Shown here piece by piece: positions 30,702-47,497 of a stretch of 64,000 nt of DNA (the first letter of the stretch is position 1; every line of letters begins with the position of its first letter). The notes beneath the pieces are model-generated. The model had not been told where the DNA came from. It searched no databases and saw only the letters and a list, made by a program, of their open reading frames with translations. This DNA is from Nocardioides sp. cx-173. Its GTDB lineage: Bacteria > Actinomycetota > Actinomycetes > Propionibacteriales > Nocardioidaceae. Location: positions 2,685,001 to 2,749,000 of the forward strand of contig NZ_CP088262.1 of assembly GCF_021117365.1 (NCBI RefSeq), given 5' to 3'. A program made the position numbers and the translations under genes.

Positions 30702-30758
30702 GCCCGCGAGTCTAGGGATCCCCGCCCGTCGAGGCGCAAAGACCGTGAGCGCCCTCCA

Positions 30759-30861
30759 GTGGTCCAGGCGCGAGGAGCCCCAGTGCCTCTCGGTGGTCGA
30801 GGTGCGAGGAGCCCGCGCAGCCGTCTCGGTGGTCGAGGCGCGAGGAGCGCCAGGGCCTCTC
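30759..30861. repeat. Three truncated repeat half-units preceding the array
   Basis: Copies of (G/A)TGGTC(C/G)AGGYGCGAGGAGC begin at 30759, 30792 and 30828, each broken off after about 35 bp. They are 5' half-units of the repeat that follows and mark the degenerate edge of the array close to the nadE promoter. Confidence 0.8.
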
Positions 30862-32884
30862 GGTGGTCGAGGTGCGAGGAGCGCCAGCGACGAGCCTCGA
30901 GACCCAGCGAGCCGACAAGCAGCCCCGGGGTACGACGGTCAGGCCGCGGAGGTCTCGACGCTCAGGCGCTGCACGCCTTCACACCTCGACCACCGAAGCC
31001 TTCCGGTGGTCCAGGCGCGAGGAGCGCCAGCGACAAGCCTCGAGACCCAGCGAGCCGACAAGCAGCCCCGGGGTACGACGGTCAGGCCGCGGAGGTCTCG
31101 ACGCTCAGGCGCTGCACGCCTTCACACCTCGACCACCGAAGCCTTCCGGTGGTCCAGGCGCGAGGAGCGCCAGCGACAAGCCTCGAGACCCAGCGAGCCG
31201 ACAAGCAGCCCCGGGGTACGACGGTCAGGCCGCGGAGGTCTCGAGGCTCAGGCGCTGCACGCCTTCACACCTCGACCACCGAAGCCTTCCGGTGGTCCAG
31301 GCGCGAGGAGCGCCAGCGACAAGCCTCGAGACCCAGCGAGCCGACAAGCAGCCCCGGGGTACGACGGTCAGGCCACGGAGGTCTCGAGGCTCAGGCGCTG
31401 CACGCCTTCACACCTCGACCACCGAAGCCCCTCCGGTGGTCGAGGTGCGAGGAGCGCCAGCGACGAGCCTCGAGACCCCGTGAGCCGAGAAGCAGCGTGG
31501 GGTACGGCGGTCAGGCCGCGGGGGTCTCGAGGCTCAGGCGCTGCACGCCTTCACACCTCGACCACCGAAGCCCCTCCGGTGGTCGAGGCGCGAGGAGCGC
31601 CAGCGACAAGCCTCGAGACCCCGGTGAGCCAACAAGCAGCCCCGGGGTACGGCGATCAGGCCACGGAGGTCTCGAGGCTCAGGCGCTGCACGCCTTCACA
31701 CCTCGACCACCGAAGCCCCTCCGGTGGTCGAGGCGCGAGGAGCGCCAGCGACAAGCCTCGAGACCCCGGTGAGCCAACAAGCAGCCCCGGGGTACGGCGA
31801 TCAGGTCACCGGGGTCTCGAGGCTCAGGCGCTGCACGCCTTCACACCTCGACCACCGAAGCCTTCGGGTGGTCGAGGCGCGAGGAGCGCCAGCGACAAGC
31901 CTCGAGACCCCGGTGAGCCAACAAGCAGCCCCGGGGTACGGCGGTCAGGTCACCGGGGTCTCGAGGCTCAGGCGCTGCACGCCTTCGCACCTCGACGACC
32001 GAAGCCTTCCGGTGGTCGAGGTGCGAGGAGCGCCAGCGACGAGCCTCGAGACCCAGTGAGCCAACAAGCAGCCCCGGGGTACGGCGGTCAGGCCGCGGGG
32101 GGTCTCGAGGCTCAGGCGCTGCACGCCTTCGCACCTCGACCACCGAACGGGGCGCGGTCCTCTCGGTGGTCGAGGCGCGAGGAGCGCCAGCGACAAGCCT
32201 CGAGACCCCGGTGAGCCAACAAGCAGCCCCGGGGTACGGCGATCAGGTCACCGGGGTCTCGAGGCTCAGGCGCTGCACGCCTTCACACCTCGACCACCGA
32301 AGCCTTCCGGTGGTCGAGGCGCGAGGAGCGCCAGCGACAAGCCTCGAGACCCCGGTGAGCCAACAAGCAGCCCCGGGGGTACGGCGGTCAGGCCGCGGAG
32401 GTCTCGAGGCTCAGGCGCTGCACGCCTTCACACCTCGACCACCGAAGCCTTCCGGTGGTCGAGGTGCGAGGAGCGCCAGCGACGAGCCTCGAGACCCCGG
32501 TGAGCCAACAAGCAGCCCCGGGGGTACGGCGGTCAGGCCGCGGAGGTCTCGAGGCTCAGGCGCTGCACGCCTTCACACCTCGACCACCGAAGCCTTCCGG
32601 TGGTCGAGGTGCGAGGAGCGCCAGCGACGAGCCTCGAGACCAGCGAGCCGAGAAGCAGCGTGGGGTACGGCGGTCAGGCCGCGGGGGTCTCGAGGCTCAG
32701 GCGCCAGGGCGCCTTCACACCTCGACCACCGAAGCCTTCCGGTGGTCGAGGTGCGAGGAGCGCCAGCGACGAGCCTCGAGACCCCGGTGAGCCAACAAGC
32801 AGCCCCGGGGGTACGGCTGTCAGGCCGCGGGGGGTCTCGAGGCTCAGGCGCTGCACGCCTTCGCACCTCGACCACCGAAGGGGT
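30862..32884. repeat. Tandem array of 14 palindromic units of about 143 bp
   Basis: Units begin (GGTGGTC) at 30862, 31005, 31148, 31291, 31435, 31578, 31723, 31867, 32011, 32165, 32309, 32454, 32599 and 32741. Periods are 142-145 bp, with one of 154. Each unit holds two inverted halves: one begins GGTGGTCGAGG and ends GAGCCTCGAGACC; the other begins GGTCTCGAGGCTC and ends CACCTCGACCACC. They are separated by about 45 bp with GCAGCCCCGGGGTACG. Units 2 and 3 differ at a single base, which points to recent expansion. The period is not a multiple of three, so the long open frames across it are artefacts. This array fills the 2.2 kb between nadE and the HNH gene. Confidence 0.92.
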
Positions 32885-32962
32885 CGAGAAGTGCTCAGAG
32901 CCCTGTGGACAAAGGGGATTCTCGGGCCCTCGACTGTCGGTGGCGGGTGCTTGAGTGGACCC

Positions 32963-34255
32963 ATGAGCGCCCCCGGACCCGACCAGAGCTGGCAGCTGCT
33001 CGACGGTGTCCGCGCCGAGACCCGAGCAGCCACCGACGCCGAGCTGCGACGCCTCCACCTCGTCCACGACTGGTGCTCACTGCACGAGACCCACGACGAA
33101 GACGACGCCGCGTTCGGCGACCACGGCATCCCGCTCGCCGGACCCGGGGCACCCATGGTCAGCGAGTTCGCGGTCATGGAGCTCGGCGCCGCCCTGGGCA
33201 TGTCGACCGACTCCGCCAAGCGGTACATCGGCGCCGCCCTCGAGATCAAGTACCGCCTGCCCAGGATCTGGGCAAGGGTCGAAGCCGGTCAGCTCGGGTT
33301 CTGGAAAGCCCGGTGGATCGCCGAGCACACCATGTGCCTACCCCTGGCCGGCGCGGCGTTCGTCGACGCCCGGGTCGCCTACTGCGCGCACAAGGTCTCC
33401 TACGCCGAGGTCGAACGACAGATCACCACCGCGATCGCCCGGTTCGACCCCGAGCAGGCCGAGAAGCTACGCCGCCAAGCCGCCGACGGACGCAAGCTCG
33501 ACATCCACACCGAGGCCATGTCCCTCGAAGGCACGATCGAGGTATCCGGGACTCTGGATGCGCAGGACGCCCTCGACCTCGATGCCGCGATCAACCGGCT
33601 CGCCGCCGACCGCAAGGCCGCCGGCTCCACCGAGTCACTGGATGTGCGACGCGCCCAGGCCGCCGGTGACCTCGCGCGTGGGCAGGACACGCTCCCGTTC
33701 GACGGAGCCAAGGGTGGTTTCGAGACAGGACTTCGTCCTTCCTCAACCACCGAGAAGAGCATCAAGATCACCCGGGTCATCGACCTGCACGTCCACGAGG
33801 CCGGCGTGTTCGGCGACCCGAACGCCACCGTCGGCAGAAGCGGCCGCAAGCCGGTGCTCGTCGAGACCATCCGCGAGTGGTGCGGCGCACCCGACACCGT
33901 CATCAACCTCAAGCCCGTGCGGGACCTCGCCGACCACGTCCACGTCGCCGGCTACGAGCACCCCGACCGGCTCATCGAGCAGGACGACCTCGTCGACCAC
34001 CACTGCGTGTTCCCCTGGTGCACCCGCCCAGCCGAACGCTGCGACCACGACCACGTCACCCCCTACAACAAGGGCGGACCAACGTGCTCGTGCAACTCCG
34101 CACCACTGTGTCGCGGGCACCATCGCTTGAAGACCCACGGCCGCTGGTCCTATGACGTCCTGGACCGCGGCACCTACCTGTGGCACTCACCCCACGCCCA
34201 CACCTACCGCCGCGACCACACCGGCACCGAGCCCGTCCTACGCCAGAGACCCTGA
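32963..34255 (+). CDS. DUF222/13E12-repeat family HNH endonuclease
   Basis: 430-residue protein. The N-terminal DUF222 domain spans about 30-300 (VSEFAVMELGAALGMSTDSAKRYIGAALEI...GQLGFWKARWIAEHT). The C-terminal HNH nuclease has zinc cysteines and catalytic residues in CVFPWCTRPAERCDHDHV, YNKGGPT and LCRGHHRLKT, all present. ATG 32963 is the first methionine after the array; longer frames read back through repeats and are rejected. Codons at 33712-33750 encode a palindrome of the same family as the array, within a poorly conserved linker (GGFETGLRPSSTTE). Related genes are multicopy in mycobacteria and Nocardioides. Function is unknown; DNA nicking or mobility is inferred. Confidence 0.9.
   Translation: MSAPGPDQSWQLLDGVRAETRAATDAELRRLHLVHDWCSLHETHDEDDAAFGDHGIPLAGPGAPMVSEFAVMELGAALGMSTDSAKRYIGAALEIKYRLPRIWARVEAGQLGFWKARWIAEHTMCLPLAGAAFVDARVAYCAHKVSYAEVERQITTAIARFDPEQAEKLRRQAADGRKLDIHTEAMSLEGTIEVSGTLDAQDALDLDAAINRLAADRKAAGSTESLDVRRAQAAGDLARGQDTLPFDGAKGGFETGLRPSSTTEKSIKITRVIDLHVHEAGVFGDPNATVGRSGRKPVLVETIREWCGAPDTVINLKPVRDLADHVHVAGYEHPDRLIEQDDLVDHHCVFPWCTRPAERCDHDHVTPYNKGGPTCSCNSAPLCRGHHRLKTHGRWSYDVLDRGTYLWHSPHAHTYRRDHTGTEPVLRQRP
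33712..33750. repeat. 39-bp palindrome inside the HNH gene
   Basis: It begins GGTGGTTTCGAG, ends CCTCAACCACC and has a central AGGAC-TTC-GTCCT hairpin. Outer arms and total length (39 bp) are identical to the reverse complement of the solitary palindrome at 47459-47497; the centres differ. Confidence 0.85.
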
Positions 34256-34391
34256 GCGCCCCACACCCCGCCACCGCGGGGCCACCGGCACGCGCCGACC
34301 GCTACTCCGGACGCGCGGCGGCCCACGGTCGATGAGTCCGGACGACCGGGCCGGTCTCCACGTCACAGCACCCACCCCGAGGGAGACCACC

Positions 34392-47018: not shown

Positions 47019-47393
47019 CGAACGGGCTGGCCGGGCGACCGCGTGGAGGAGACTCCCCGAGGAAGGTCCGGGCTCCGTAGAGCGAGGTGGTGGGTAACAC
47101 CCACCCGGGGCAACCCGCGGGAAAGTGCCACAGAGAACAGACCGCCGGCCCTCTCCTGAAGGGAGAGAGTCGGTAAGGGTGAAACGGTGGAGTAAGAGAC
47201 CACCAGCGACCCGGGCGACCGGGCCGGCTCGGCAAACCCCACCTGGAGCAAGATCAGACAGTGCACGTCCGAGGGCTGCTCGCCCGAGTGCACGGGTAGA
47301 TCGCTGGAGGCTGTCGGCAACGGCAGTCGTAGATGGATGGTCGCCCCTCGGTCCGCCGAGGACAGAACCCGGCCTACAGGCCAGCCCGTTCGC
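47019..47393 (+). ncRNA. rnpB: RNase P RNA (class A)
   Basis: The catalytic RNA of RNase P, which matures tRNA 5' ends. The P1 helix is a perfect 13-bp pairing of GCGAACGGGCTGG (47019) with CCAGCCCGTTCGC (47381-47393). The CR-I sequence GAGGAAGGTCCGGGCTCC, the P4 partner ACAGAACCCGGCCTACAGG near the 3' end, and internal GGTAAGGGTGAAACGGTG and GAGCAAGATCAGACAG are all present. The length of 375 nt fits actinobacteria. A 24-nt segment of its 3' end (47368-47391) recurs at 52360-52383. Confidence 0.95.
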
Positions 47394-47458
47394 AATATCG
47401 GCCTCACCTGCGGAACCGTGATCACGGCACCGCCAGCGACTTCAGTGGGGCGGAGCTC

Positions 47459-47497
47459 GGTGGTTGAGGTGCGAGCGAAGCGAGCCTCGAAACCACC
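47459..47497. repeat. Solitary 39-bp palindrome between rnpB and the IS element
   Basis: It begins GGTGGTTGAGGTGCGAGCG and ends CGAGCCTCGAAACCACC. The outer arms GGTGGTT/AACCACC and GAGG/CCTC pair. It is the same family as the 31-33 kb array units and as the palindrome inside the HNH gene, and is probably an interspersed repeat of this genome. Confidence 0.8.

Follow-up and report, generated by a model that had tools for sequence, protein, structure and literature searches.

One family of REP-like palindromes is tied to two kinds of nuclease gene in Nocardioides sp. cx-173 and other genomes of its family, which is a more general observation than that of the original prediction, where the DUF222-HNH protein was suggested to recognise, spread or protect the palindromes as RAYT transposases do for REP elements. 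We consider it probable that the palindromes are a REP-like repeat family that has a GIY-YIG nuclease as its partner and that also forms the left end of mobile DUF222-HNH units. The GIY-YIG gene is the better RAYT-like candidate because it is bracketed by palindromes in 25 of 30 genomes and is present in all 19 genomes with at least 50 palindromes. A DUF222-HNH partner fits less well, DUF222 occurring in 194 of the 198 family genomes and the palindrome type of cx-173 (G000, hereafter the own genome) in 95.

The locus in the window

The window (the whole stretch of 64,000 nucleotides that was analysed) contains the following features.

30719..34329, no strand: block of about 3.6 kb made up of array and DUF222-HNH unit, missing in the closest relative searched (G129); its edges are the ends of the flanking alignments, not exact junctions
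30759..30887, + strand: tandem repeat of left-half, truncated palindromes (period 34 bp, 3.7 copies) where the array has its outer end
30861..32880, no strand: array of 14.0 copies of about 143 bp, REP pairs, BIME-like
32833..32876, - strand: palindrome closest to the gene, its end 86 bp ahead of the start codon
32877..32962, + strand: leader from palindrome to start codon, conserved among paralogs
32963..34255, + strand: DUF222-HNH gene, 430 amino acids
33176..33676, + strand: DUF222 domain, residues 72-238 (PF02720, E 1.1e-12)
33713..33751, - strand: in-gene palindrome (codons 251-263), located in the linker, predicted to be disordered, that joins the DUF222 part to the HNH part
34004..34138, + strand: HNH nuclease region (residues 348-392), in which Cys, Asp-His, Asn and His-His are invariant in a nine-sequence alignment (A1)
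34256..34299, + strand: right end conserved in the DUF222 subfamily of the window, beyond which paralogs diverge
47459..47497, + strand: solitary palindrome, whose first 36 bp equal the palindrome 3' of the GIY-YIG gene of the own genome (G000:C1:3673683-3673718)

The 14-unit array of the same family that had been described upstream of the gene is indeed there, and its palindromes are mostly 43- and 44-mers of alternating orientation, two per 143-bp unit. The leader is also conserved in L030, a copy of the gene without palindrome. The window protein scores 48.4 bits against PF02720, above the cut-off of 24.4. The Pfam HNH model left the window protein itself unmatched; PF01844 is precomputed for several of its homologs, and the Cys, Asp-His, Asn and His-His of residues 348-392 are presumably the HNH metal-site residues. 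Searches of NCBIfam and PHROGs returned no informative name, a structure model of the protein (pLDDT 78.6, pTM 0.55) had no match in the PDB at E <= 0.001, and the PADLOC models of anti-phage defence gave 0 families for both the DUF222-HNH and the GIY-YIG protein. The solitary palindrome adjoins an RNase P RNA (RF00010, 295 bits) at 47023-47392, and the similarity of the window to G129, which is presumably Nocardioides szechwanensis, ends at 47394, just beside it.

Sequence and folding of the palindromes

The arm pattern GGTGGTYGAG-N8-38-CTCGARACC has 163 exact matches in the own genome (4.45 Mb) and its reversed control has 0, so the palindromes are not due to chance. In single-stranded folding, the in-gene palindrome (z -3.9) and the solitary one (z -3.8) were each better than 200 of 200 shuffles, and the array 44-mer reached z -3.05, with 2 of 200 shuffles equally good; the 43-mer was unremarkable (z -0.6, 52 of 200). 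Inverted pairs do not predominate in every genome: close neighbours are inverted in 8 of 12 cases in G114 and in only 3 of 18 in G133. None of nine T/A-type forms from the own genome contains GTAG; five of them contain CGTC or the complementary GACG, always internally and never at an end.

Two further arrangements were seen. Truncated left-half palindromes of about 25-30 bp form ladders upstream of DUF222 genes (L206, L145, L127, L267, L268 and L274), and in several genomes these ladders end with a complete palindrome close to the gene. In addition, a short variant almost without centre (GGTYGAG..TCGARAC) was found by eye upstream of some DUF222 genes (L240-L244, in G181 and G182) and around a GIY-YIG gene (L355, in G049).

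Palindromes ahead of DUF222-HNH genes

The own genome has 22 DUF222 genes (23 profile rows, two of which are one gene), and the genome-wide count of the arm pattern that had been proposed as a check bears out the predicted enrichment, 118 of the 163 palindromes lying within 3 kb of these genes against 5.4 expected. A palindrome lies at most 3 kb upstream of 16 of the 22 genes. When palindromes are counted as clusters, so that tandem amplification has no effect, the first 2.87 Mb of the own genome (17 DUF222 genes or fragments) have 30 clusters, of which 13 are near a DUF222 gene or fragment, compared to a circular-shift mean of 1.27; 135 of 100,000 shifts reach 13, about the number expected from trivial shifts of less than 3 kb. 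The enrichment is 3- to 13-fold in five of seven relatives, with 53 of 220 palindromes within 3 kb of DUF222 genes in G191 (4.5 expected), 31 of 135 in G179 (2.5 expected) and 19 of 129 in G093 (2.6 expected).

Such strong enrichment in the own genome, G191, G179 and G093 speaks for a rival reading in which DUF222-HNH, acting alone as the RAYT-like enzyme, is responsible for recognition and spread of the palindromes and the GIY-YIG gene is a frequent landing site, a reading that we regard as unlikely. Several counts go against it: six of the 22 own genes have no palindrome within 3 kb upstream, the enrichment is weak in G069 (5 of 71, 1.4 expected; 3.5-fold) and G127 (3 of 71, 1.0 expected; 3.1-fold), and in G114 0 of 74 palindromes come within 3 kb of the single PF02720 gene, a count that covers this gene and has three further window-type DUF222 matches outside it. 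The corresponding figure around the sole PF02720 gene of G133 was 0 of 38; G133 was dropped as a counterexample, since window-type genes missed by PF02720 do have palindromes nearby. For the two of these genes that were measured to the start codon, the gap between palindrome and ATG is 79 and 81 bp (86 bp in the window), and for two more it lies 109 and 155 bp before the matched part. Six own DUF222 genes (L022, L024, L025, L035, L036 and L039) were observed to have other C-terminal tails and no upstream palindrome array, and L036 has one solitary palindrome 1.4 kb upstream.

The position of the palindrome was followed in 40 DUF222 loci from ten genomes of the genus. The strict core TGGTYGAG..TCGARACC occurs within 400 bp upstream of the start codon in 19 of them, and with at most one core mismatch in 25, of which 22 end 83-135 bp before the start codon; at least one locus with an upstream core is present in nine of the ten genomes, and the centres vary by genome. 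When one best DUF222 locus was taken per genome and 400 bp on either side were considered, the strict core was upstream in 11 of 24 loci and downstream in 2 of 24. An unguided hairpin search near DUF222 genes was uninformative, being too noisy in GC-rich DNA. The original prediction had named a distribution independent of DUF222 genes as the result that would tell against it; instead, the spacing between palindrome and start codon is kept across divergent species, even at 36% protein identity, and this conserved distance is again a point for DUF222-HNH acting alone. G181 and G182 point the same way: DUF222 is present there in many copies, a GIY-YIG gene was not detected and own-type palindromes are missing, with a short core seen by eye upstream of several copies (1 of 8 within one mismatch of the full core).

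Signs that the DUF222-HNH unit is mobile

Judging from sequence comparison, the DUF222-HNH unit appears to be mobile. The sequence that paralogs within a genome have in common extends from the palindromes, at their outermost GGTGG, to a point shortly past the stop codon. At the left end, identity outside is 0.58 in G093 (shuffled 0.56), 0.58 in G179 (0.57) and 0.61 in G225 (0.58), and over the first 40 bp inside it is 0.80, 0.78 and 0.84, respectively. The measure was uninformative for the two groups of the own genome, where the motif chain stopped inside arrays, and the left edge in G191 (0.66 compared to 0.56 shuffled) is blurred by other repeats outside. At the right end, paralog similarity is at background within 0-80 bp past the stop codon in all six groups. 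That the left end of the unit is a palindrome in three genomes would suit DUF222-HNH as sole enzyme; it counts against that reading that the palindrome is mostly on one side of the unit, with the exception of G179, where similarity rises again downstream and palindromes are present there too.

The difference in site occupancy at the window locus is consistent with this mobility. The NadE protein of G129 is 90% identical to that of the window, and the distance from NadE to the next gene is 106 bp in G129 compared to 3.69 kb in the window, a difference for which the array and the DUF222-HNH gene account. The flanking alignments place window position 30718 at L307:1836 and 34330 at L307:1865, with identities of 87.8% and 86.6% on the two sides. 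NadE and the next gene are as closely spaced in 9 of 29 foreign loci, including G129, and the number of empty sites is the one point that favours gain in the window over loss elsewhere. The junctions of the window and the empty site of G129 are too diverged for a target-site duplication to be readable.

The palindrome within the gene

The palindrome inside the HNH gene is real and lies in the coding sequence, as had been claimed, and its position is to be corrected from 33712-33750 to 33713-33751, where it reads GGTGGTTTCGAGACAGGACTTCGTCCTTCCTCAACCACC and is in frame. The solitary element to which it had been compared was placed exactly at 47459-47497, and its reverse complement does have the same length and outer arms with another centre. 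Among the nine intact family-A genes of the own genome, six carry the form of the window (W, L033, L038, L040, L041 and L042), L034 agrees in its arms and matches the solitary element over its whole sequence, the centre of L037 is enlarged, and L030 has no palindrome. A seventh copy of the window's form is found at C1:1846133 in a DUF222 fragment, a truncated DUF222-HNH copy (G000:C1:1845656-1846573) that retains the in-gene palindrome. Nocardioides sp. 503 (L076) has a close variant, and the N. szechwanensis loci L077 and L079 have none at this position.

The disordered linker that holds the window's palindrome has block pLDDT values of 40-46 in the predicted structure. The in-gene palindrome is of type GA..TC and the DUF222 and GIY-YIG loci of the own genome are of type GT..CC; given this difference, the in-gene copy may be older or may have come with the gene. 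In G133 the in-gene palindromes are imperfect (two core mismatches), have another centre, lie on the other strand, in frame and further along the gene, and occur twice in L206, and their other centre and orientation are among the points in favour of DUF222-HNH as the enzyme that spreads them. Intragenic REPs are already known (PMC3733652).

A GIY-YIG gene bracketed by palindromes

Inspection of the palindromes of G133 revealed a small gene with two inverted arrays around it, which encodes a GIY-YIG protein of the UPF0213 group. Its counterpart in the own genome (G000:C1:3673362-3673655) scores 60.1 bits against PF01541 (cut-off 22.6) and matches the UPF0213 proteins 1zg2 and 1ywl of the PDB with E 2.7e-22 and 2.6e-17. 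In a first sample of ten genomes, palindromes were near 11 of 13 such genes, on both sides of ten and upstream only of one; this number was read by eye and includes one locus truncated at a contig end, which the scripted count (10 of 13) left out. As controls, palindromes were present at 0 of 17 GIY-YIG loci of the UvrC or exonuclease type and in the region upstream of NadE at 0 of 29 foreign loci.

A profile of the gene (A2) found it in 105 of the 198 family genomes, with one or two matches in 99 of the 105. Taking the best locus per genome in 30 genomes of six genera, the core palindrome is on both sides in 25, a proportion that is not fully independent because nine of the 11 loci behind the profile are bracketed, and that was counted per side irrespective of strand. 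Orientation, taken from the locus listing, is regular: each of the 25 bracketed loci has an upstream copy on the strand of the gene and a downstream copy on the other strand, and in 20 of them the two copies closest to the gene are inverted. The five genomes without the strict core on both sides are G105, G113 (contig edge), G114, G146 and G092; with a looser core, G146 and G092 do have it on both sides, and in G114 it is present but not inverted. This two-sided bracketing, far more regular here than at DUF222 units, argues against the GIY-YIG gene being a mere landing site for palindromes spread by DUF222-HNH. Two tandem GIY-YIG genes 445 bp apart were observed in G013 (L364), with palindromes around and between them.

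The two sides of the gene also agree in palindrome type. In 50 of 50 palindromes of GIY-YIG loci, the pair next to the conserved loop is complementary (G-C 22, C-G 16, T-A 12), compared to a mean of 17.7 and a maximum of 32 in 20,000 shuffles. The type is equal on both sides in 24 of 25 loci (shuffled mean 4.0, maximum 11), with identical cores on the two sides in only 4 of 25. Furthermore, GIY-YIG and DUF222 palindromes have a type in common in nine of nine genomes, and it is the main type in eight; in G129 the common type is tied with another, one copy each. This comparison used preselected DUF222 loci, mostly palindrome-bearing, and G127 and G105, which gave no GIY-YIG type, are not among the nine.

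Presence of the gene follows the number of palindromes. It was found in all 19 genomes with at least 50 own-type palindromes, in 36 of 41 with at least ten and in 69 of 157 with fewer (Fisher 3.4e-7; within genus, 26 of 27 vs 26 of 45, p 3e-4; shared ancestry uncorrected). Five genomes (G177, G028, G065, G116 and G151) have at least ten palindromes and no detected GIY-YIG gene. Among the 103 genomes without the own-type pattern, 36 have the gene, and in nine of these 36 the core is on both sides of it. The GIY-YIG units of the own genome and G129 have the gene and the palindromes in common and not the flanks, which fits movement of the unit.

The nearest downstream opposite-strand palindrome starts 2-21 bp past the GIY-YIG stop codon in 17 of the 22 loci listed. 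This near-fixed position, together with that upstream of start codons, is what would be expected if the palindromes were regulatory or insulating hairpins of nuclease genes (operators, terminators or transcript stabilisers), spread together with these genes through normal duplication and recombination and not acted on by any nuclease, and REPs have been proposed as RNA hairpins (PMC3733652). We nevertheless think this rather improbable, somewhat more so than DUF222-HNH acting alone, since 45 of the 163 own-genome palindromes are more than 3 kb from any of the 22 DUF222 genes (a few of these 45 adjoin a DUF222 fragment or the GIY-YIG gene), the sites in G114 are scattered, copies lie in frame within coding sequence, and the centres differ from copy to copy while the arms stay constant.

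Proposed mechanism and known systems

In the explanation that we prefer, with the GIY-YIG nuclease as partner, this enzyme would recognise the extruded palindrome hairpin by its invariant core, a TGGTY stem and an asymmetric GAG/TCGA loop, and would nick it. Nicking could lead to movement or exchange of single palindromes, of pairs, or of the whole palindrome-gene-palindrome unit. DUF222-HNH genes would be multi-copy mobile units with a palindrome at the left end and sometimes also within the gene, and may use the same palindrome ends either in trans or by means of the HNH nuclease that they encode. The palindrome within the gene would be a tolerated insertion of such an element and not the cause of the system. 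A bolder proposal, to which we give somewhat less than even chances, is a transposase-free class of mobile DNA in which a dedicated GIY-YIG nuclease of a single domain mobilises REP-like palindromes and coevolves with them, and in which multi-copy DUF222-HNH units have the same palindromes as their left end, so that two unrelated homing-type nucleases would act on one hairpin family.

The known systems closest in anatomy are REPtrons, the combination of REPs or REPINs with RAYT. The likeness extends to short (20-60 bp), imperfect, dispersed palindromes that occur as singlets, pairs and arrays, to a low-copy nuclease gene bracketed by palindromes that agree in type on both sides, and to intragenic copies, which are found there too (PMC3733652). 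In contrast to REPtrons, the bracketed gene here encodes a GIY-YIG nuclease and not a Y1/HUH tyrosine transposase, the palindromes have neither of the GTAG and CGTC end tags described for REPs in the same source, and a second, multi-copy nuclease gene (DUF222-HNH) bears the same palindromes. The Nocardioides system is REPtron-like by anatomy but not a REPtron, since it has neither the Y1 transposase nor the GTAG/CGTC end tags. It is very improbable that the palindromes owe their movement to a classical RAYT (Y1 tyrosine transposase) encoded at another place in the genome: the anatomy resembles that of REPs and REPtrons (PMC3733652), yet PF01797 has no match in the own genome and in 196 of the 198 family genomes, and the two that bear it (G003 and G010) have 0 own-type palindromes, and RAYT was rejected as partner.

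The array unit of the window resembles BIMEs in consisting of two palindromes in opposite orientation and differs from them in sequence and in that the arrays sit at DUF222-HNH genes. The small nuclease matches in sequence the single-domain GIY-YIG proteins of UPF0213 (1zg2 and 1ywl). Repetitive DUF222-HNH genes are also known from Mycobacterium, where the REP13E12 genes are taken by us to be of the DUF222-HNH protein family. Consistent with this, REP13E12/HNH endonuclease/DUF222 repeats are a category of repetitive element in PMC10589994. Unlike the Mycobacterium repeats and the UPF0213 proteins, for which no link to palindromic repeats was found in the literature searched, the DUF222-HNH units here have a REP-like palindrome as their left end; this search, which lay mostly outside subscription papers, gave no publication in which palindromic repeats are linked to DUF222 or GIY-YIG proteins.

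REP elements are widespread in bacteria, and only some of them have a known dedicated enzyme; of the two superfamilies distinguished in PMC3733652, one apparently has no dedicated transposase. A GIY-YIG gene with matching palindromes on both sides is a specific and testable partner for REP-like repeats in genomes that lack RAYT, and a possible role is suggested both for the small nucleases of the UPF0213 group and for the DUF222-HNH genes, which are numerous in these bacteria.
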